NCBI RefSeq assembly: GCF_033344935.1
Contig: NZ_JAWPMM010000001.1
Location: forward strand, 1,784,001-1,848,000
Reading direction: 5' to 3'
Source: Reichenbachiella sp.
GTDB lineage: Bacteria; Bacteroidota; Bacteroidia; Cytophagales; Cyclobacteriaceae
Length of the DNA stretch: 64,000 nucleotides
The translations under genes were made by a program, and so were the position numbers. The notes below the pieces were generated by a model that did not search any database, had not been told where the DNA came from, and worked only from the letters and a program-made list of their open reading frames with translations. Shown here one piece after another: positions 3,985 to 52,008 of the stretch (its first letter is position 1; every line of letters begins with the position of its first letter).

Positions 3985-5892
3985 TTGAGCGAAGCCAAGG
4001 ACATACTGAAAAAATACTGGGGGTACGATGCCTTTCGTCCTTTGCAGGAAGAAATCATCGAGTCTGTATTGGAAGGCAAGGACACACTCGCATTGCTCCC
4101 TACGGGCGGAGGAAAGTCCATTTGTTTTCAAGTGCCTGGACTGATGCTAGAAGGCGTATGTTTGGTGATCTCTCCATTGATCGCACTGATGCAAGATCAG
4201 GTGCAGCAGCTCAAAAAACGGGGCATATCCGCAGCTGCCGTTACTTCTGGCATGCCTAAGCGTGAGATTGATATACTGCTGGACAACTGTGTGTTTGGTA
4301 AAGTAAAGTTCCTTTACGTGTCACCCGAGCGTTTAAAATCCGACCTCTTTATCGAAAGGTTGAAAAAGATGCATGTGGGTTTATTGGCTATCGACGAGGC
4401 GCATTGCATTTCTCAGTGGGGGTATGATTTTCGGCCGTCCTATATAGAAATTGCTAACATTTACGACTATTTATCTGACACCAAAAAAATTGCTTTGACG
4501 GCTACGGCCACAGCCGACGTAGCCGATGATATTTGCGAGAAGTTGGCTTTTGATGAACCATCCATTTTTCAGAAGAGTTTTGCCCGAGTGAATTTGTCCT
4601 ACTCGGCTTTTGAGTTAGAAAACAAGGGGCCGAAACTCATAGACATATTAAACAATGTCAAAGGCTCAGCTATCGTCTATGTGAAAAGCCGGTTGGAGAC
4701 CCAGAACGTAGCCAAGTATCTTTATCAGCATGGTATTTCTTCCGATTTCTATCATGCGGGTTTGGATCCTGTCGCTCGAAACAAAAAGCAAGACGAGTGG
4801 ATCAAAAACATGCGCCGCGTGATGGTGGCTACCAATGCCTTTGGCATGGGAATAGACAAACCCGATGTTCGTGTGGTGGCACATTTGGATTTACCTGATT
4901 CTCTGGAAGCCTATTACCAGGAAGCCGGTCGAGCCGGTCGAGATGAGCGAAATGCTTTCGCCGTGCTGCTTTATAATCCCTCCGATTTATTTCGCCTCAG
5001 CGAAAACGAAAAGCACAGAAATCCTACGCTTGATTACGTCCAGCGAGTCTATCAAGCCATTGCCAACTATTTCAAATTGGCCACAGGCAGTAGCCAATGG
5101 CAGAGCTATGATTTTGATTTGAAGCAGTTTGCTGCTACTTACCAACTCAATCCGCGAGAGGCACACTTCTGTATTCAAAAACTAGAGGAGATGGGGCTAT
5201 TGCTAGTCAGTGAAAGCTTGAATAAGTCAAGTACGGTCAAATTCGCTCTGGACGGCAATGAGGTTTATAAATTCACTATATCGAATGTGGCCTACGAGTC
5301 CGTGATCAAAGCTATGTTGAGACTATATGGAGGAGGATTGTATTCGGACTTTATGAATGTCTCGGAGTTTGAAGTGGCCAAATTGGCCAAGCTGTCTAAA
5401 AGTGAGGTAATCAAAAAACTACAATTGCTCGAGCAGCAAGGGGTGATTGTCTATGACCCCATGAAGACGCTGCCGCAGCTCACTTATCTCACACCACGAC
5501 TAGAGGTTTCCGCACTAAAAAGATTCTACAACGAAGTGGCTCCCAGACATGCGGTGGTCAAAGAAAAAGTGGAAGCCATGAAAGCCTATGCCTCAAACAA
5601 GGAAGGGTGCCGCACACGAATTTTTCAAGAGTATTTCAATGAAAAAACCTATCTCAACTGTGGTGTATGTGATGTCTGCATCAAAGCCAAGAAGGAAGAA
5701 AAACTAATCGCTGCACTCGATCAGACCAAAGCCGAGATCCTGGCTCAAATTACCTCTGGCACCACCTACATCGATGAACTCAAAGATGCTGTAGAAGTGA
5801 AAGGTGATTTTGTATTTACCGAAGCCATTCGCATCCTTGTAGATGAAGGTAAGGTGAAAATGGAGGGATATGATCGGTTGGTGCTAATTTGA
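3985..5892 (+). CDS. recQ: ATP-dependent DNA helicase RecQ
   Basis: 3'-5' DNA helicase acting in recombination and fork repair, 635 aa. The start is a TTG: an in-frame stop at 3973 leaves no ATG upstream, and the protein then begins MSEAKDILKKYWGYDAFRPLQ as usual for the family. Visible motifs: motif 0 FRPLQ, Walker A LLPTGGGKS (about residues 38-46), DEAH box in AIDEAHCISQWGYDFRP (about 135), motif VI QEAGRAGRDER (about 310), and four zinc-binding Cys in EGCRTRIFQEYF...NCGVCDVC (about 545-570). A winged-helix region surrounds this, but there is no recognisable HRDC domain, as in the shorter RecQ forms. It is monocistronic. Confidence 0.95.
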   Translation: MSEAKDILKKYWGYDAFRPLQEEIIESVLEGKDTLALLPTGGGKSICFQVPGLMLEGVCLVISPLIALMQDQVQQLKKRGISAAAVTSGMPKREIDILLDNCVFGKVKFLYVSPERLKSDLFIERLKKMHVGLLAIDEAHCISQWGYDFRPSYIEIANIYDYLSDTKKIALTATATADVADDICEKLAFDEPSIFQKSFARVNLSYSAFELENKGPKLIDILNNVKGSAIVYVKSRLETQNVAKYLYQHGISSDFYHAGLDPVARNKKQDEWIKNMRRVMVATNAFGMGIDKPDVRVVAHLDLPDSLEAYYQEAGRAGRDERNAFAVLLYNPSDLFRLSENEKHRNPTLDYVQRVYQAIANYFKLATGSSQWQSYDFDLKQFAATYQLNPREAHFCIQKLEEMGLLLVSESLNKSSTVKFALDGNEVYKFTISNVAYESVIKAMLRLYGGGLYSDFMNVSEFEVAKLAKLSKSEVIKKLQLLEQQGVIVYDPMKTLPQLTYLTPRLEVSALKRFYNEVAPRHAVVKEKVEAMKAYASNKEGCRTRIFQEYFNEKTYLNCGVCDVCIKAKKEEKLIAALDQTKAEILAQITSGTTYIDELKDAVEVKGDFVFTEAIRILVDEGKVKMEGYDRLVLI

Positions 5893-41797: not shown

Positions 41798-43180
41798 AGT
41801 AAAGAGGTTACTTGAAGTCAATCCTGTCCAAGACGGATTTTCAGAAAAAGTGGCAAACCCACCGAAGTGGGTTAGATTTATTTAGCGATAAATAAAATCA
41901 ATTGCCGATATGAATATGACACTTTTTGCTCAAATAGTTGGGCTACTTCCACGAGAAGATTTCGATAAATTAGTTGGACAGCATAATTCCAATAAGCATA
42001 GCAAAGGTCTGGATAGCTGGCATCAGCTAATTGCAATGGTATTTTGTCAATTTACCAAGTGTGAAGGGCTTCGTGATATTTGCAATGGACTAATGTCGGC
42101 ACAAGGAAATTTAAATCACCTGGGCATCAGTCACCTAGTAAAACGATCTACTTTGAGCTATCAAAATACACATCGTAGTTGGGAGCTATTCAGAGATTTT
42201 TATCTCAAATGTAAGGAAAGGCTGTTTGAACAGGGTAATCGTAAAGACCGCAGGAAGTTAAGCAGGATAAAGGCGAAGATATTTATGTTAGATGCCAGTT
42301 TGATAGGTGTCTGCCTTAAAGTATTTGACTGGGCACATTACAGACAATGTAAGGGTGCGATGAAATTGCACATGCTCTTGGATTACGACAACTGCCTGCC
42401 TCAATATATGTATTTCACTGATGGAAGAAAGCATGAAGCTCCTGCTGCCAGGCAATTTAGCATGCCCAAAGGCAGTGTAGTAGTGGCAGACAGGGGTTTT
42501 CTTGACTTTAAACTCCTGCAACACTGGCATGAGCAGGGACTGAATTTTGTAGTCCGCTGTAGAGACGATGTGTCTTTGGAAACAATTGCTAGTTGTAGCA
42601 AAACAAAAATGCCAATTATGAAAGACGCCAAGATAAATTTGAGCCCAAATTCAAGAAAAGTGTATCAAAGGCCACTGCGCCTTGTAGAGATCTGGGATGA
42701 GGTGAATCAGAAAATTATCAGACTCTTAACCAATCAAAAGACTTGGACAGCACAAACCATCTCTGAGCTTTATAAACAGAGATGGTCAATAGAAATATTC
42801 TTTCGAGATATCAAAACTCATCTGAAAGTCAAAACCTTTATTGGCACAAGCCCAAATGCAGTGTTGATCCAGCTATGGACCGCAATGCTGGCCATGCTGA
42901 TCCTGAAATACCTTAAAATCAAGGCAAAATATAACTGGTCACTAGCTAATCTGATCAGCTTTATCAGAATCGCAATCCTATCTAAAATAGACTTGTTCAA
43001 ATGGCTCAATCAGCCCTTCATACCAGAAGGGTTTACTAATCGAGACACTAGTCATCAGCTATCGTTCAATTTTATAAGGGAGATACCTCAAGAAAGTGGC
43101 TGAAAATTGCAGGCTACAGCTTGTATCACAACATATTTAAAACAACTTGGACAAGATTGACTTCAAGTAACCTCTTTACT
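41798..43180 (+). mobile_element. Intact IS4-family insertion sequence
   Basis: 1383 bp. Terminal inverted repeats 41798-41832 and 43146-43180 are 35 bp with one mismatch, beginning AGTAAAGAGGTTACTTGAAG. One full-length transposase gene lies between. No target-site duplication is apparent: CTGGTAG precedes and AAAAAAAGTC follows. The right end abuts the T-tract of the narK terminator. Confidence 0.93.
41910..43103 (+). CDS. IS4-family transposase with DUF4372 N-terminal domain
   Basis: 397 aa DDE transposase, intact. N-terminal DUF4372-like domain (LFAQIVGLLPREDFDKLV, SWHQLIAMVFCQFTKCEGLR). Catalytic residues: Asp in KIFMLDASLIG (about 130), Asp in SVVVADRGFLDF (about 195), and the IS4 Y-R-E-K signature in LYKQRWSIEIFFRDIKTHLK (about 290-310), giving the third acidic residue. 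The ORF is complete, and the inverted repeats match, so the element may be active. Belongs to the IS at 41798-43180. Confidence 0.95.
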   Translation: MNMTLFAQIVGLLPREDFDKLVGQHNSNKHSKGLDSWHQLIAMVFCQFTKCEGLRDICNGLMSAQGNLNHLGISHLVKRSTLSYQNTHRSWELFRDFYLKCKERLFEQGNRKDRRKLSRIKAKIFMLDASLIGVCLKVFDWAHYRQCKGAMKLHMLLDYDNCLPQYMYFTDGRKHEAPAARQFSMPKGSVVVADRGFLDFKLLQHWHEQGLNFVVRCRDDVSLETIASCSKTKMPIMKDAKINLSPNSRKVYQRPLRLVEIWDEVNQKIIRLLTNQKTWTAQTISELYKQRWSIEIFFRDIKTHLKVKTFIGTSPNAVLIQLWTAMLAMLILKYLKIKAKYNWSLANLISFIRIAILSKIDLFKWLNQPFIPEGFTNRDTSHQLSFNFIREIPQESG

Positions 43181-44962: not shown

Positions 44963-45442
44963 ATGAGTCATTTGAACACGTTTTTGCAGAAGCTTTTTGA
45001 GACCTCTAATTGGCCGCCGCGTTGGATTTGTGGAGAGTGGTCCAGTTTTCACGGATGGCTCTATATCACCAGTGACTTTGCGATATGGTTGGCTTATTTT
45101 ATCATACCAGTCATTATCATGTACTTCATTCAACGAAGGCCAGATATTCCATTTTTGCCAGTGTTTTGGCTGTTTGGTGCCTTTATTATTTTTTGTGGAG
45201 CTACACATATTTTGGATGCTCTTATGTTCTGGTGGCCAGCCTACAGGCTGAGTGCCTTGGTTCGATTTTTTACAGCCGTTGTGAGTTTCGTAACTGTGTT
45301 TGCACTTATAAGAGACTTGCCTAAACTTTTGCAAATCACCTCTCTAAACTCTGAGAATAATCAGCCCAACGAAATCGAAGAGTATAAGTCTAAGATTAAA
45401 GCATTAGAAAAGGAATTGTCAGAGTTAAAGTCTAGCAAGTGA
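44963..45442 (+). CDS. Stand-alone ethylene-receptor-like copper-binding membrane domain
   Basis: 159 aa from the ATG at 44963 (a TTG at 44903 would add a hydrophobic 20-residue leader). Three membrane helices match the ethylene-binding domain of plant ETR1 and cyanobacterial receptors: SDFAIWLAYFIIP (Asp38, Tyr45, Pro49), FWLFGAFIIFCGATH (Cys78, His82), and LVRFFTAVVSFVTVFALI. Asp, Cys and His are the Cu(I)/ethylene residues of ETR1 (25, 65, 69), and both spacings, 40 and 4, are identical. A short coiled coil (EYKSKIKALEKELSELKS) ends the protein where receptors normally continue into a kinase. Here the kinase is a separate gene overlapping by 4 bp. Ethylene binding is inference. Confidence 0.85.
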   Translation: MSHLNTFLQKLFETSNWPPRWICGEWSSFHGWLYITSDFAIWLAYFIIPVIIMYFIQRRPDIPFLPVFWLFGAFIIFCGATHILDALMFWWPAYRLSALVRFFTAVVSFVTVFALIRDLPKLLQITSLNSENNQPNEIEEYKSKIKALEKELSELKSSK

Positions 45443-46944
45443 AAAGTAACAGAGTAAATCTCCAAGATTGGATTCAAATCATTGTATTGACCTTTTTTGC
45501 TCTATTTATTACATCGATGATATTTATCGCCGATGTATTTGTTCCTTTAGGGGTCGCAGTAGGTGCCATGTATTGCATCGTGATATTTTATAGCTGGTTG
45601 TTGCCAGGTCGGTTGACTCCTGTTTATGCGGGTTTGATATGTACTGTACTCATTGTTTTAGGCTTGATTCTTTCTCAATCAAGGGCAGTTGGAAATGAAA
45701 TTTTTGGAATGAACCGTGTTATATCGGTGATTGTAATATGGGTTTGCACGGCGCTGGTCATGATGGCAAAAAATGGTTTTAGAAGCCTAGAAGAAGCGCG
45801 TGATCAACTGGAACAACGAGTGATGGAAAGGACTAAGGAACTGAGAGAAAAGCAGCGCCTTCTTGAAATAAGTAAAGAGAGATACAAGTCTTTATTAGAA
45901 AGTGCGCCCGATGCGATGGTAATTGCCGAGCGAAATGGCACAGTTCAATTAATTAATCAGCAAATCACAAACTTGTTTGAGTACGAGAAGGACGAAATTG
46001 TGGGAACTAGCGTGGAGCAATTGATACCAGAGCGGTATCGGAGACTTTACAAAGGTCATAGGAGTGGTTTTTTTGATATTCCAGATATTGAGCAGCAGGG
46101 CAGAGCAGTCGAGCTTATCGGTACAAAAAGGTCGGGAGAAGAATTTCCTATGGAAGTTTCGCTTAGTCCGCTGGAGACAGACGACGGGGACTTAGTTTGT
46201 GCTGCTATTCGCGACATTAGTTTTCGGAAAAATGCTGAAGAATCTATGGAGCTTTTTAGTCAGCAGTTGCAAAACAAGAACAAAGAATTGGAGCAGTTTA
46301 CTTATGTAGCTTCGCATGATTTGCAAGAACCATTGCGTACAATTACAAGCTTTTCAGAAATGCTGATGACGAATTATAAAGATCAGTTTGACGAAACAGG
46401 GAAGAAGAGCCTACGGTTTATTTTAGATGCAACTGGAAGAATGAGCCAATTAATAAAAGGATTACTCGACTATGGACGATTGGGTAAAAGCGATTCAAAG
46501 GAAAATATTAATTGTAATGATCTATTGCTTGATCTCAAGAAAGATTTGGCTACTGGGTTGAAGGAATCAAATACCAAACTTGAAGTTGACGATTTACCTG
46601 TTGTCAAAGGCCATCCAATCGAACTGCGATTGCTGTTACAAAACCTTATTTCAAATGCAATGAAATTTAGCAAGCCTAATGAGGCTCCGGTTATTAACGT
46701 AAAGGCAAAGAAAAAAAGGGGAGAAGTTGTATTTTGTGTTGAAGACAATGGAATAGGAATTGCAGACGAGCATAGAGATCGAATCTTTGAAATTTTTCAA
46801 CGTTTACACAACAAAGACAAATATGAAGGTACCGGCATAGGATTGGCCCATTGTCGTAAAATTGTTGAACTACACGGAGGGCAAATTTGGGTTGAATCTG
46901 AACCTGACAAGGGAAGCTCTTTTTATTTTTCTATACCTAAATAA
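45439..46944 (+). CDS. Membrane PAS-domain sensor histidine kinase, partner of the ethylene-receptor-like protein
   Basis: 501 aa; GTG start overlapping the previous stop (GTGA). About four membrane helices (1-110: WIQIIVLTFFALFITSMIFI, GVAVGAMYCIVIFYSWL, YAGLICTVLIVLGLILS, ISVIVIWVCTALVMM), a coiled coil (EARDQLEQRVMERTKELREK), one PAS domain (about 145-265, SAPDAMVIAERNGTVQLINQ), and the kinase with H-box TYVASHDLQEPLRTITSF, N-box LQNLISNAMKFSK and G-boxes VEDNGIGIAD and GTGIGLAHCRKIV. The core is the phytochrome-type HisKA. Phosphate probably passes to the receiver encoded next. Coupled translation implies stoichiometric expression with the receptor-like protein. Confidence 0.93.
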   Translation: MKSNRVNLQDWIQIIVLTFFALFITSMIFIADVFVPLGVAVGAMYCIVIFYSWLLPGRLTPVYAGLICTVLIVLGLILSQSRAVGNEIFGMNRVISVIVIWVCTALVMMAKNGFRSLEEARDQLEQRVMERTKELREKQRLLEISKERYKSLLESAPDAMVIAERNGTVQLINQQITNLFEYEKDEIVGTSVEQLIPERYRRLYKGHRSGFFDIPDIEQQGRAVELIGTKRSGEEFPMEVSLSPLETDDGDLVCAAIRDISFRKNAEESMELFSQQLQNKNKELEQFTYVASHDLQEPLRTITSFSEMLMTNYKDQFDETGKKSLRFILDATGRMSQLIKGLLDYGRLGKSDSKENINCNDLLLDLKKDLATGLKESNTKLEVDDLPVVKGHPIELRLLLQNLISNAMKFSKPNEAPVINVKAKKKRGEVVFCVEDNGIGIADEHRDRIFEIFQRLHNKDKYEGTGIGLAHCRKIVELHGGQIWVESEPDKGSSFYFSIPK

Positions 46945-46951
46945 ACTAACC

Positions 46952-47359
46952 ATGAAAAAACTGAACTGCATACTGCTCATAGACGATGATGAACCTACCA
47001 ACTTCCTCAATGAAATGATCATTTCTCAGCTGAATTGTACCGAGTCTATTGTAGCGGTACAAAGCGGAAGAGAGGCGTTGGATTATTTAGGTTCTCAAGT
47101 CGATGGACAATTTCCTCAGCCGGATTTGATTCTCTTGGATATTAACATGCCTGGCATGAATGGATGGGAGTTTTTAGTAAAATATAAAAACCTGGATGAG
47201 TCGCAAAAGGGTAAAGTCATTATAATGATGCTAACTACCTCTTTGAATCCTGATGATGAAGCGAAAGCACATGGAATAAAGGATATTAAATCGTTTATGA
47301 GAAAACCCTTGACAAAGGAAGCGTTCATAGATGTGCTCGATCGATATTTTTTAGACTAA
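46952..47359 (+). CDS. Single-domain response regulator
   Basis: 135 aa from the ATG at 46952, 7 bp after the kinase gene; the longer open frame overlaps the kinase. CheY-like receiver only: acidic pair CILLIDDDEPTNFL (about 5-18), phospho-acceptor Asp in DLILLDINMPGMNGWEFL (about 60), Thr in IIMMLTTSLNPDD, Lys in IKSFMRKPLTKEAF (about 115). No output domain, so it acts by protein contact or phosphorelay. This Rcp1-like arrangement is typical beside phytochrome-type kinases. A terminator at 47391 closes the operon. Confidence 0.93.
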   Translation: MKKLNCILLIDDDEPTNFLNEMIISQLNCTESIVAVQSGREALDYLGSQVDGQFPQPDLILLDINMPGMNGWEFLVKYKNLDESQKGKVIIMMLTTSLNPDDEAKAHGIKDIKSFMRKPLTKEAFIDVLDRYFLD

Positions 47360-47537: not shown

Positions 47538-49889
47538 ATGCGAAGAGTACTGTTCTTTTTGGTGGGTTTTCAATTGATGGCTGGTGTGGCTATGACGCAA
47601 TCAATTAGCGGTACGGTGGTAGACGAGGGGGGTGAAGTCATTCCAGGCAGCACGGTCCAAATTGTAAATACGACCAAGGGTGGTATTACCGATATCAATG
47701 GCAAGTTTCATCTAAATAATCTCCAGCCCGGCACACATCAAATCAAAATATCTTCACTTGGACTTTTGACACAAGTGCTGACGGTAACGGTGACTGAAGG
47801 ACAGACCACCCAGCTCCAAGTGGTCATGAAGGCCGATGCCACCAGCCTTCAGGAGGTGACAATTTTCGGTAAGTCTGAAGCTACTGTGGTGAGAGAGCAG
47901 GCTTATGCTGTTGCCGTAGTAGAAGCCAAAGCATTCAAAAATGTAAGTGCCGACGTCAATCAAATCCTGAATCGCGTTTCGGGTATTAATATCCGCCAAA
48001 GCGGAGGCATGGGGTCTAGTTTCAATCTTTCGCTAAATGGCCTATCAGGTAACCGAGTCCGAACTTTTATCAACGGCATACCAATGGATTACTTTGGGTC
48101 GTCTCTGAGCCTCAATAATTTCCCAGCGAACCTGATCAGCACAATTGAGATATATAAAGGTGCTGTGCCGATTCACCTTTCGTCAGATGCCTTGGGCGGC
48201 TCGATCAATATTGTGACCGACACCAGACCGATCAATTATCTGGATGCTTCCTATTCTTTTGGATCATTCAATACTCACACAGGTGCTGTCAATGCCCAGT
48301 GGCACCATGCCAATACCGGGTTGACTTTACGTGTCAAGTCTTATTATAATCATTCAGACAATGACTATCCTATAGACATCAATTTACTCGATGTGGAGTC
48401 GGGCAAGCTGGACGAGGAGACCACTGAGATTAGAAGATTTCATGATGCTTATACCTCTAAAATGGCCTGGATCGAGGCTGGTATTATGAACAAGCCTTAT
48501 GCTGATGAACTCATGATTGGTACGGTCGTTTCTGACAATTTTAAGGAGATACAACAAAATCCGTATGCCACCGGTGTCTCGTCTTTCCCTGTTGGTGAGG
48601 CCTTCGCCGCTTCGGATATCAACATATTCAACCTGTCTTATCGCAAAAAGAACCTATTGGTGAAAAACCTGAATGTTCGTGGATATGGGGTTTATTTAAA
48701 ATCTAATGAAGAATATAAAGACATCAGCCCCAACAGATACGATTGGTTTGGAAACTACGAAGCCGATGTACACCCAACCACCGGTGAGCTGGGCCGAAAG
48801 ACTCACTTTTTCCTGAATAGAGAAAATTATTTAGCCAATGTAAATGCAGAATATCAGTTAGCCGATGAGCATAGCGTATCAGCCAGCTATTCGCTCAATA
48901 GCTTAGAACTACAAGGGCACGATGACTATCAGCCTCAAAACAATACACAATACAGTACACCAAACACAGTTACCAAACAGGTGGTAGGGCTGGCTTATAC
49001 CAACGTTGCCTTTGAGGATCGTTTGAAAACCACCTTGTTTACCAAGAGGTATCAGTACAATTTGAAATCAAATAACTCGAGTTATAATGGCGATGAAGAC
49101 AACTACTTCGAGACGCAAAACACGCGAATGGGTTATGGAATGGCTTCTACTTTCTTTCTGAAAGAAAGCTTACAGTTCAAGGCGTCATTCGAAAAGGCCT
49201 ATCGTTTTCCAGAATCTACCGAGATGTATGGTGATGGCCTGAATGTAATACCCAATCCAACACTAGAGCCAGAGACCAGCTACAATTACAACCTGGGGGT
49301 AAGACTAAACAAGCAATCAGCCTACAATGGTTATGTCGTCGAAGCTAATGTTTTTGTGCGAGATTCCAGAGACTACATTCGCTTTGAGCCACGCATGAAT
49401 CGCAGCACCTATGTCAACGACCCAAAGGTTTTTGCAGCAGGGTTAGACTTGTCAATGAACTTTCAATTGGATCAAAATTGGAATGTGGGACTGGGTGGTA
49501 CTTACCTGGATTTGAGAAACAACGACGAGACTTCTTCAGTCTATCAGGACCGCCTACCCAATGAACCTTATCTGTTTGGTAATCTGATTATCACCTATCG
49601 CATGAGTGATTGGTTAGGCTTAGCCAATGAGCTGACGTTGACCAACATCAATCGTTACGTCCACGAATTTTATCTGAAATGGCCCAGTTTGGCGGCCAGT
49701 GGCAAGTCAAGCATTCCCACCCGATTCACCAACGACCTACAACTCACTTATAGTCTAAAAGAAGGCACCTACAATGTGTCGTTTTTGGTAGCCAATGTGC
49801 TGGACGCCAAGGTGTACGACAATTTCAACCAACAAAACCCCGGAAGATCTTTCAATCTCAAACTGAGGTATTTCATAAGTAAAAATTAA
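47538..49889 (+). CDS. TonB-dependent receptor, XusA-like (iron/siderophore uptake)
   Basis: 783 aa, signal peptide MRRVLFFLVGFQLMAGVAMTQ. CarboxypepD_reg domain (SISGTVVDEGGEVIPGSTVQ, GGITDINGKFHLNNLQPG), plug (about 110-230, NQILNRVSGINIRQSGGMG, GSSLSLNNFPANLISTIEIY) and a barrel with the C-terminal strand GRSFNLKLRYFISKN. It has the TonB-receptor plug typical of siderophore receptors. Following genes encode a DUF4374 lipoprotein and a PepSY reductase, the gene set of the Bacteroides XusABC xenosiderophore system, so ferric-siderophore uptake is the likely role. Ligand unknown. Confidence 0.88.
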   Translation: MRRVLFFLVGFQLMAGVAMTQSISGTVVDEGGEVIPGSTVQIVNTTKGGITDINGKFHLNNLQPGTHQIKISSLGLLTQVLTVTVTEGQTTQLQVVMKADATSLQEVTIFGKSEATVVREQAYAVAVVEAKAFKNVSADVNQILNRVSGINIRQSGGMGSSFNLSLNGLSGNRVRTFINGIPMDYFGSSLSLNNFPANLISTIEIYKGAVPIHLSSDALGGSINIVTDTRPINYLDASYSFGSFNTHTGAVNAQWHHANTGLTLRVKSYYNHSDNDYPIDINLLDVESGKLDEETTEIRRFHDAYTSKMAWIEAGIMNKPYADELMIGTVVSDNFKEIQQNPYATGVSSFPVGEAFAASDINIFNLSYRKKNLLVKNLNVRGYGVYLKSNEEYKDISPNRYDWFGNYEADVHPTTGELGRKTHFFLNRENYLANVNAEYQLADEHSVSASYSLNSLELQGHDDYQPQNNTQYSTPNTVTKQVVGLAYTNVAFEDRLKTTLFTKRYQYNLKSNNSSYNGDEDNYFETQNTRMGYGMASTFFLKESLQFKASFEKAYRFPESTEMYGDGLNVIPNPTLEPETSYNYNLGVRLNKQSAYNGYVVEANVFVRDSRDYIRFEPRMNRSTYVNDPKVFAAGLDLSMNFQLDQNWNVGLGGTYLDLRNNDETSSVYQDRLPNEPYLFGNLIITYRMSDWLGLANELTLTNINRYVHEFYLKWPSLAASGKSSIPTRFTNDLQLTYSLKEGTYNVSFLVANVLDAKVYDNFNQQNPGRSFNLKLRYFISKN

Positions 49890-49902
49890 TTAGAATATAA
49901 AA

Positions 49903-51135
49903 ATGAAGAAGCAATTTTTAAATATAGCAGCAGTCCTGTCTTTGGCCATTATGACCATGACATCTTGTTCGGATGACAATGACGTGGCGGAAAGCGCACA
50001 ATTTGTATTGGGAATCGAGGCGGCTACGGGTACAGATATATTGGTGTCTGTAGATACCATCACCTCAGGAACCATTTCACCTGTAGGCAATGGCATCGAA
50101 CAGCCGGCATGGATGTCGTATTACCAAATCGGCGAGACGTTGGTGACTACAGGATACAATGCCGACAATGTTATGACAGGCTATCGTTTGATAGGAGAAG
50201 AGCTAATCAGCCTTGGTTCATTGGTAACTGAATTGGGTATCTATGGCATCGTAGAAATCGACGAAAATACAGCAATGGCTGTGGGCGTAACGAGAGCGGG
50301 CTATGAGGATCGCGTGTTTTACACAATCAATCTGGACGATATGTCTATCGCTAGCCGATTCAGCACTAAAATCGACGAAAGACAAGATGAAGGTTTGGTG
50401 GCTTGGCCTACGGGAATCGTGGTAGATAATGACAAAATGTATGTGGCTTACTACCTAATGGGAGCCGGAGAGTTGGAAGATGCACCCGCATTCTCCACAC
50501 CAAATTCGAATCAAGCTAGAGTGGCGATCTACTCTTACCCAGAATTGGAATTTGAAAAAATCATTACCGATGATCGTACGACGGACATCGGCTTGTACTC
50601 TGGTGAGAATAGTATCCTGAAAACGGATAGAGGCGACCTTTATACTTATTCTACATCAGCATTGGCCAGTGGGTTTGCACCTACGCCTGATAACCCATCT
50701 GGTTTTTTGAGAATCAATAGTGGTACTACCGAATTCGATGAGGATTACTTCTTCAATTTCGAAGAGGAGAGTGGAGGATACAAACTGAACAACGTGGTGT
50801 ATGCCGGTGGTAACAAAGCGGTAGTGAGAATGGCTAAGGAAGACGATACCAACAGCGACTATTTGTGGGCGACTTACGGTCCGAACATCGCTAGCGACTT
50901 GGCGATATGCGAAATGGCAGTGGTCGATCTAGAAGCGCAAACGGTCACCAAATTGGATATCCCGGCACACGGTGGTGAATGGGGAATGGCCAATCTCTAC
51001 CACGATGGAATGGTGTATGTAAACATCTCTACTGAGACGGAGGCTTACATCTATCAAATCGATCCATCTACTGCTACCGCTACAAAAGGCGCCAAAGTAG
51101 ATGGCAATTGGACGAAGGGGTTCGCGGCATTGTAA
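49903..51135 (+). CDS. DUF4374 lipoprotein, XusB-like siderophore-binding propeller
   Basis: 410 aa; lipoprotein signal MKKQFLNIAAVLSLAIMTMTSC followed by SDDND, the acidic export signal of surface lipoproteins. The rest forms repeated beta blades (GYRLIGEELISLGSLVTELG, GVTRAGYEDRVFYTINLDDM, SDLAICEMAVVDLEAQTVTK), a predicted seven-bladed propeller of DUF4374. In Bacteroides thetaiotaomicron such a protein (XusB) binds ferric siderophore at the surface and hands it to the receptor; here that role is inferred from gene order (13 bp after the receptor). Confidence 0.85.
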   Translation: MKKQFLNIAAVLSLAIMTMTSCSDDNDVAESAQFVLGIEAATGTDILVSVDTITSGTISPVGNGIEQPAWMSYYQIGETLVTTGYNADNVMTGYRLIGEELISLGSLVTELGIYGIVEIDENTAMAVGVTRAGYEDRVFYTINLDDMSIASRFSTKIDERQDEGLVAWPTGIVVDNDKMYVAYYLMGAGELEDAPAFSTPNSNQARVAIYSYPELEFEKIITDDRTTDIGLYSGENSILKTDRGDLYTYSTSALASGFAPTPDNPSGFLRINSGTTEFDEDYFFNFEEESGGYKLNNVVYAGGNKAVVRMAKEDDTNSDYLWATYGPNIASDLAICEMAVVDLEAQTVTKLDIPAHGGEWGMANLYHDGMVYVNISTETEAYIYQIDPSTATATKGAKVDGNWTKGFAAL

Positions 51136-51178
51136 TAACGAATTGCAATCGCTTCAAATGTCAATGTACTCACCAGTA

Positions 51179-51250
51179 CTGTCACATTGAGCCACGTCGA
51201 AATGTCCGTTTGCTTCTAGCAGCAAGGCTTCGAGGACCTCAGCCTGACAG
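51179..51250. repeat. Intergenic palindromic element, CTGTCA...CTGACAG type
   Basis: Begins CTGTCACATTGAGCCACGTC and ends CCTCAGCCTGACAG, with CGAAATGTCC and GCTTCGAGGAC inside. It splits the iron-uptake locus between the DUF4374 and DUF4198 genes. A partial relative lies at 37617-37650. Confidence 0.5.
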
Positions 51251-51294
51251 GTTATTAGACATTTGAAGTGATTGTTTCAATCATTTTACCAAAC

Positions 51295-52008
51295 ATGAAA
51301 AAATCAATAGTAACATTCCTATTCGCTTTGGCGGCCATGCCAAGTTTCGCTCACTACCTCTGGGTAGAAACCAGTAGCACGGGAGAACTCAACAAGGAGC
51401 AAACAATCAAAGTCCATTTCGGAGAATACACTTACGGTGTAATCGAACAAGTAGGAGGAGACGGCTTCAATGCTGTGAAGGATTTTACCCTGTATGTCAT
51501 TGACCCAAAGGGTAATAGAACAGCACTTGAAGTCACGGCTCAGACGGATCATTATGCCGCCAGTTTCACACCTAAGAAGAAAGGTACTTACACCGTGGTG
51601 CTAGACAATTACCAAATCGATGTGATCGACTATACGAAATACGATTTCGGCATCTTCCGCACGCATTACAATTCGATCGCCAAAGTGCAAGTAGGGGACG
51701 ATGAAGCAAACACGGCTGCGCAGAATGCAGAGGGAATCGCCATTCAGCAATTGAAATCAGAAAGTGGCATCGAGCTTTTGGTGACTTACAAAGGAGAGCC
51801 GCTTCTTGAAAATGAAGTAAAGGTTTTCGTTGCCGATCAATGGTCCAAGACCTTGGAAACGGATGAGCAGGGAAAGGTAACTTTCCGATTGCCATGGAAT
51901 AGCAAGTATATCGTGGAGACCACGATCAAAGAAGAAGTGCCGGGCCAGTTTAGAGGTGAGGACTACGAATTCATCTGGCACTGTGCCACCACTTGCATCA
52001 CCAACTAA
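51295..52008 (+). CDS. DUF4198 exported protein, probably metal-related
   Basis: 237 aa from the ATG at 51295; signal peptide MKKSIVTFLFALAAMPSFA. Mature protein begins HYLWVE, as usual in DUF4198, and is a chain of beta-sandwich (Ig-like) domains (QTIKVHFGEYTYGVIEQVGG, FTPKKKGTYTVVLDN, KVFVADQWSKTLETDEQGKV). C-terminal HCATTC holds two Cys and a His that could bind metal. DUF4198 proteins frequently accompany metal-uptake TonB receptors (nickel, cobalt, iron); here it lies between the XusB-like and PepSY genes, so a periplasmic role in iron handling is likely but unproven. Confidence 0.85.
   Translation: MKKSIVTFLFALAAMPSFAHYLWVETSSTGELNKEQTIKVHFGEYTYGVIEQVGGDGFNAVKDFTLYVIDPKGNRTALEVTAQTDHYAASFTPKKKGTYTVVLDNYQIDVIDYTKYDFGIFRTHYNSIAKVQVGDDEANTAAQNAEGIAIQQLKSESGIELLVTYKGEPLLENEVKVFVADQWSKTLETDEQGKVTFRLPWNSKYIVETTIKEEVPGQFRGEDYEFIWHCATTCITN

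Follow-up and report, generated by a model that had tools for sequence, protein, structure and literature searches.

The window, a stretch of 64,000 nucleotides from a contig of Reichenbachiella, a marine-type bacterium, contains three consecutive forward-strand genes encoding a stand-alone ethylene-binding-domain (EBD) protein, a membrane histidine kinase and a response regulator. The genes and their parts, in window positions, are:

44963..45442, + strand: stand-alone EBD protein, 159 aa (PF25487 match, AlphaFold model)
45050..45337, + strand: ETR1_N-matching region, residues 30-125 of the EBD protein (Pfam profile)
45074-45076, 45194-45196 and 45206-45208, + strand: Asp38, Cys78 and His82, inside the ETR1_N region (alignment)
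45362..45436, + strand: C-terminal helix of the EBD protein with a conserved heptad, a proposed coiled coil (alignment, AlphaFold model)
45439..45442, + strand: GTGA, overlap of the sensor stop TGA and the kinase start GTG (DNA reading)
45439..46944, + strand: histidine kinase, 501 aa, GTG start, with a four-helix membrane domain (4TM), PAS, HisKA (His293) and HATPase_c (Pfam)
45439..45813, + strand: 4TM domain of the kinase, residues 1-125 (AlphaFold model, profile)
46952..47359, + strand: single-domain response regulator, 135 aa, without an output domain (PF00072, E 2.1e-14, residues 7-128)

The coordinates and reading frames of the original prediction are correct on re-reading, and its description of three overlapping genes holds for the first junction only: sensor and kinase overlap by 4 nt, and the receiver ATG at 46952 lies 7 nt past the kinase stop. 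From the DNA, the GTGA overlap makes translational coupling of sensor and kinase probable. The kinase had been described as starting at this GTGA with four helices of its own and a PAS domain; four helices are indeed predicted, PAS, HisKA and HATPase_c are matched, and the regulator behind it is a receiver alone. The two-component motifs are present, with His293 and the N, G1 and G2 boxes in the kinase and Asp63/Thr95/Lys118 in the receiver. A profile search of the window genome gives this single EBD match, and a search for viral carriage in viral contigs gave 15 pattern matches, with no relatives among them.

By profile and alignment, the 159-aa protein is an ethylene-receptor N-terminal domain. 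A profile search had been proposed in advance as the check on this protein, and it matches ETR1_N (PF25487) at 123.5 bits (E 4.3e-36), far above the curated cut-off of 27. The alignment agrees with the predicted spacings of 40 and 4 residues between Asp38, Cys78 and His82, which equal those between Asp25, Cys65 and His69 in ETR1. The remaining ETR1 binding positions, Tyr32, Ile35, Pro36 and Ile62, correspond to Tyr45, Ile48, Pro49 and Ile75 in the window protein. The alignment thus shows the full set of seven residues that ETR1 requires to bind ethylene, and copper and ethylene binding by the EBD protein would be expected from them. Asp25, Cys65 and His69 are the copper site of ETR1 (PMC12643061, in part), and the seven required residues are all kept in the receptor AzoEtr1 (PMC11819568, in part). 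Because the first 130 residues of AzoEtr1, as a GST fusion, bind ethylene by themselves (same source, in part), as does SynEtr1(1-130)-GST (PMC6682694, in part), an isolated EBD suffices for ethylene binding.

A genome scan with the stand-alone protein as query gave 101 relatives, of which 80 were kept, a set enriched for the query's kin. These 80 loci and the window copy make up 81 rows, close relatives by selection, with the distant EBD loci L082-L121 outside the count. Asp is found in 79 of the 81 rows (L073 has Glu, and the frame of L045 starts within the domain), Cys and His in 81 each, and Tyr45, Ile48, Pro49 and Ile75 are kept in 80 or 81. Relatives with the helices and without the Asp, Cys and His, named beforehand as evidence against the prediction, are absent from these rows.

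The AlphaFold model of the EBD protein has a mean pLDDT of 93.6 and helices at residues 28-58, 65-87, 94-131 and 134-158. The first three are transmembrane helices, and the pLDDT block means are 92-98 up to residue 120 and 79 for residues 121-130. The tail was predicted to end the protein in a short coiled coil. Across 19 aligned split proteins its heptad positions 138, 141, 145, 148 and 152 are hydrophobic in 18/18, 14/19, 17/19, 19/19 and 19/19 rows, which together with the modelled helix 134-158 bears out the conserved heptad tail, the coiled coil being a proposal. A sequence search of solved structures returned four hits for the EBD protein, at E 0.39 or worse and mostly to the coiled tail, and a fold search found no solved fold for the EBD or the 4TM domain at E 0.001 or better.

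The window arrangement recurs in 22 of the 80 loci (L001-L020, L024 and L035); 56 are labelled fused, L025 is a frame break and L076 is a split of another kind. A wider set of 113 non-duplicate EBD loci contains 87 fused forms and 26 apparent splits. In an EBD tree of 114 rows, which has few columns and many open forks, the window, the 22 loci, L083 and L084 group together in a clade of 25 members (SH-aLRT 99), including Algoriphagus, Belliella, Aquiflexum, Cyclobacterium, Pleomorphovibrio, Marivirga, Chryseotalea, Ekhidna and MAGs. Of the 23 loci read, 20 have the kinase start overlapping the sensor stop, by 1 or 4 nt, when the ATG at the junction is taken as the kinase start for L009 and L012; the exceptions are L001, L002 and L035. 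In L001 the kinase start used falls downstream of the point where the 4TM match begins. A receiver relative lies behind the kinase in 18 of the 23; the contig end truncates L009 and L012, the L024 kinase frame is broken near its end, and L001 and L035 have no receiver. No neighbour family beyond the three genes is conserved within 5 kb of the split loci. Among 395 genomes of the window's phylum, 21 have an EBD, and a short-frame EBD occurs only in the window genome.

On this tree and gene order the split is a conserved lineage, not a local accident. That a fused receptor was broken by a frameshift or a sequencing error and left the EBD protein behind is hardly credible, even though fused forms are the majority of the non-duplicate loci and frame breaks do occur in the L024 kinase, in L025 and in L159, with an in-frame TGA in G511 (same contig as L045). 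The persistence of the split in 25 loci is the reason for rejecting this explanation; against it also stand the conserved tail heptad and binding residues, and a kinase that opens with a 4TM domain found above chance in no fused EBD protein examined.

The 4TM domain of the kinase is modelled as four helices (pLDDT 86.3) and finds no Pfam family up to E 10. Four of its relatives score 12.7-14.2 bits against MASE1, 13.6 against MASE3 and 19.6 against 7TM-7TMR_HD, all below the cut-offs of 29.4-31, and assignment to a named sensor domain such as MASE1 or MASE3 was rejected for want of a match over the Pfam cut-off.

Its distribution follows that of the stand-alone sensor. Of the 148 genomes examined from the window's family, 40 carry an EBD (47 matches, 2 of them below the cut-off), and 8 of these 40 have short EBD frames of 143-182 aa, the frame in G006 beginning at a contig end. 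A 4TM profile matched 15 of the same 148 genomes, 8 at 124-186 bits and 7 at 26-50 bits, a gap to be read with the fact that scores of other 4TM subfamilies are necessarily lower against a profile made from EBD partners. The eight strong genomes are the same eight that have the stand-alone EBD, and the pair is adjacent every time; kinship of the genomes makes a p-value for this co-occurrence meaningless. Five of the eight supplied profile rows, namely the window genome (G000) and G001, G033, G055 and G105 (taken as loci L003, L011, L010 and L018), and G006, G031 and G034 are outside the profile. In a 4TM tree the EBD partners form one clade against 13 non-EBD 4TM domains (support 100/99). No ORF among those examined has both an EBD and a 4TM domain above chance. 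The separate membrane kinase is probably the partner of the EBD protein.

A broader 4TM profile that includes the planctomycete loci L156 and L157 gives 25 matches in 22 of the 148 family genomes, of which 8 adjoin an EBD and 17 do not. Since those 17 stand apart from an EBD, the kinase might itself sense something. Proteins with the module and no adjoining EBD include L131, L135, L140 and L142. In L140 a related core and receiver follow the 4TM domain in one chain, behind another N-terminal region that by eye is apparently multi-helix, and no EBD lies in the 3.3 kb read. This suggests that membrane sensors of different kinds can be combined with the 4TM-kinase-receiver set. The same proteins, L140 with its other membrane region included, and the 17 matches away from an EBD could be taken to mean that EBD and kinase are merely co-transcribed, the EBD being an independent ethylene or copper binder and the 4TM domain the kinase's own sensor. 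Such separate action appears quite improbable given the co-occurrence and adjacency in 8 of 8 genomes, the overlapping starts in 20 of 23 loci, the EBD partners' own 4TM clade and the planctomycete splits that also lie beside a 4TM domain. The predicted two-subunit, ethylene-receptor-like sensor is supported by this co-occurrence together with the profile match, the seven residues, the 25-member clade and the overlapping starts.

The kinase core has a different history. In a tree of 45 chosen rows a single clade of split cores is rejected (AU p 1.1e-5), and the cores of L024 and L035 belong to another kinase group. Because these cores fall elsewhere while the EBDs and 4TM domains of both loci fall in the split clades, the sensor and the 4TM domain seem to have travelled together while the core was exchanged; the part that keeps company with the sensor thus seems to be the four-helix domain rather than the catalytic core. 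The 4TM domains of L024 and L035 are divergent, scoring 50-51 bits (both outside the model) against at most 44 for the four non-EBD 4TM domains listed, and their placement rests on a tree with long branches.

Further splits lie outside the clade. A scan of 246 Planctomycetota genomes, centred on G535, a genome chosen for carrying the split L076, finds an EBD in 25 of them and four splits among the short frames:

L076: stand-alone EBD; the next gene is a MASE3-PAS-kinase
L155: ATGA overlap; the next gene has two helices, PAS domains and a kinase, followed by a receiver match
L156: 4TM-PAS-kinase 8 nt downstream of the EBD
L157: GTGA overlap; the next gene reads 4TM-PAS up to the contig end, which cuts it short of any kinase domain

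Built without L156 and L157, the broad 4TM profile recovers L157 (34.9 bits, E 5e-9) and L156 (23.3 bits, E 2e-5), and the unrelated ORF that ranks next reaches 8.2 bits; the narrow 4TM profile finds neither. With both in the model, a set of 199 planctomycete genomes yields 27 matches, spread over 22 genomes, and 2 of the 27 adjoin an EBD. In an EBD tree of 60 chosen rows, grouping all 16 splits in a single clade is rejected by the AU test (p 5.8e-5). A second, separate split event is the simplest reading, so that the split architecture was apparently reached again in another phylum; one old split with later fusions would also fit.

The four planctomycete split EBDs have longer tails with a common C-terminal motif that is found in other sensor proteins too. 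A shared docking tail was considered and rejected, as the Bacteroidota EBD tails do not carry this motif (no match above 5 bits). L025 and L159 were rejected as splits, being frame breaks of fused genes. L158 (genome G584), a distant EBD-like protein with Gly in place of the Asp, was also rejected, for the missing Asp and for having no kinase match in the stretch read. The EBD matches of the Planctomycetota scan also include two fragments on G669:C92.

The reading that we regard as moderately probable is a two-component system with a divided receptor: the part of an ethylene receptor that binds the ligand forms a subunit of its own and would act through the 4TM domain of a kinase, the kinase phosphorylating the receiver. 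What the sequences show directly are the domain identities, the motifs, the gene overlap, the conserved linkage, the 4TM co-occurrence and the splits outside the clade. We infer a mechanism (its copper, ethylene, physical complex, topology, signal direction and receiver target alike) in which the EBD would bind Cu(I) via Asp38, Cys78 and His82, and this Cu(I) would in turn hold ethylene or another small, chemically related unsaturated gas. Together with the adjacent 4TM domain of the kinase, the EBD would build a composite sensor of 3+4 helices, probably arranged as a dimer of pairs. The C-terminal coiled coil of the EBD would pack close to the helix connecting TM4 with PAS/HisKA. Applied to the loops, the positive-inside rule would place the EBD N-out/C-in and the 4TM domain N-in/C-in; both C-termini would be cytoplasmic, and the linker helices could therefore meet. 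Ligand binding would alter the packing and with it the kinase activity, and phosphate would pass from His293 of the kinase to Asp63 of the receiver, which, lacking an output domain, would have to work through contact with other proteins or as part of a phosphorelay.

The same split sensor could work through the 4TM kinase with a ligand other than ethylene, such as copper itself, CO, another alkene or alkyne, or the redox state. Specificity is unreadable from sequence, the copper ligands would be identical for other ligands, and bacterial EBD proteins may integrate further inputs (PMC7700396, in part). We consider this rather unlikely: the residues other than the copper ligands that ETR1 needs for ethylene binding are almost invariant in the 81 rows, and copper genes, like any neighbour family, are not conserved near the split loci, which speaks against copper sensing.

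Among characterised systems, the putative ethylene-type sensor of the window most resembles, by function, AzoEtr1 with its receiver. The EBD is 38% identical over 120 aa to that of a 525-aa A. brasilense Sp 7 protein (L144:2989-4566), taken for AzoEtr1 by species, length and neighbours. AzoEtr1 likewise has an EBD with the seven binding residues, PAS and HisKA/HATPase_c (Pfam), followed by a 135-aa receiver without an output domain in an overlapping gene (PMC11819568, in part). It differs in being one 525-aa chain, where the EBD runs straight into the PAS-kinase and there is no 4TM domain, and in that its ethylene binding has been shown, whereas that of the window protein is predicted. SynEtr1 (Slr1212, UirS) of Synechocystis also has an N-terminal EBD, a kinase and a separate response regulator (parts of PMC6682694 and PMC7700396), but is a single chain with a cyanobacteriochrome domain and a light sensor as well. 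Plant ETR1 has the EBD with the Cu(I) ligands Asp25/Cys65/His69 (PMC12643061, in part), but as a single EBD-GAF-kinase-receiver chain at the ER that acts on CTR1/EIN2 (PMC7700396, in part).

In fused relatives from Bacteroidota the EBD leads straight into a related kinase core, and a receiver follows in many of them. In Spirosoma sordidisoli (L026), for example, EBD and core are related to those of the window and a single-domain receiver frame overlaps, but EBD and kinase form one 388-aa chain without a 4TM domain. In the planctomycete loci L076, L155, L156 and L157, as in the window, the gene of a stand-alone EBD immediately precedes that of a protein with membrane helices of its own, and the partner in L156 and L157 carries the same 4TM module as the window kinase. 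They differ in lying outside the Bacteroidota clade, in the longer tail, and in the partners of L076 (MASE3) and L155 (two helices and PAS). The window system thus has the ETR1_N domain features open to test, and departs from the single-chain form of the characterised receptors in its separate genes. In the parts of PMC11819568, PMC6682694, PMC7700396 and PMC12643061 surveyed, the receptors described are single chains and the split architecture is not met with. No stand-alone or split EBD was found in the open-licence PMC literature (titles and abstract starts, with the surveys by Lacey, Papon and Binder outside it), and a search of the literature for ethylene in seawater found nothing useful.

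Beyond the original prediction, the comparisons of genes and trees indicate that the split is a conserved lineage and that further splits lie outside it. Tentatively, and as a possibility that we hold short of even, the EBD detached from its kinase at least twice and was plugged back as a free subunit into a general four-helix relay module, giving a 3+4 helix composite receptor; the 4TM domain would then serve as an adaptor through which kinases receive their input from membrane sensors, whether separate or appended.

How the ethylene-binding signal passes from the membrane to the kinase is an unsolved problem. ETR1 including its membrane domain has not been crystallised, according to part of PMC12643061, and no structure of an ethylene-binding membrane domain was found by sequence or fold search. 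The 159-aa EBD protein is a small target for structure work. As a natural binding subunit that would signal over a protein-protein interface, it would make binding and transmission separable, so that the two could be mixed and each mutated singly. The split systems point to ethylene-type sensing in Bacteroidota and Planctomycetota.

The stand-alone ethylene-binding domain (EBD) proteins of Planctomycetota at loci L076, L155, L156 and L157 end in a common 44-residue tail, with a consensus of about ELERFNRLAVGREERMIELKREVNxLxxELGxPPY. The same tail is found on proteins that resemble sensors of other types and have no kinase domain (among L165-L173 and L175); these are PAS-like, as assigned by BLAST, or GAF-, receiver- or Cache-like, as assigned by eye. 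The tail is present in 13 of 199 Planctomycetota genomes, three of the 13 being the sources of the tail model itself. At L172 the gene following the tail protein encodes a HisKA_2 kinase, and at L171 the tail is internal to a protein of greater length, which also has a match to a kinase. The tail may serve split sensors for docking.

Relatives of the four-helix membrane domain (4TM) of the window kinase also occur without an adjoining EBD:
L140 (genome G211), 841-2948: apparent multi-helix region, 4TM module and kinase core in one chain
The L140 kinase core is close to that of the window kinase, and the chain is followed by a relative of the window receiver. No EBD lies near it in the 3.3-kb stretch around the locus; G211 encodes a fused EBD elsewhere.

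Separately, L133 (G054) and L134 (G115) encode proteins of ~190 aa in which a 4TM module precedes a C-terminal segment bearing two CxxC motifs.

One EBD-like protein lacks the Asp of the putative copper site:
L158 (genome G584), 4044-4448: EBD-like protein, 135 aa
It keeps the Cys and His and has Gly at the Asp position. The product of the 979-aa ORF directly upstream resembles a phage tail protein.

The three-gene system in the window is flanked by:
41910-43103 (two genes upstream of the sensor gene): DDE transposase with DUF4372
47538-52008 (downstream): TonB-dependent receptor, DUF4374 and DUF4198 genes (family matches)
The downstream genes may together serve the uptake of a metal or siderophore; none of these families is conserved adjoining the other split loci read (neighbours within 5 kb).

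Within the window's genus, EBD and kinase are fused in a single 404-aa protein in one congener (G124), next to a receiver gene (L101), and another (G068) gave no EBD match. The distribution of the EBD in the genus is thus patchy.
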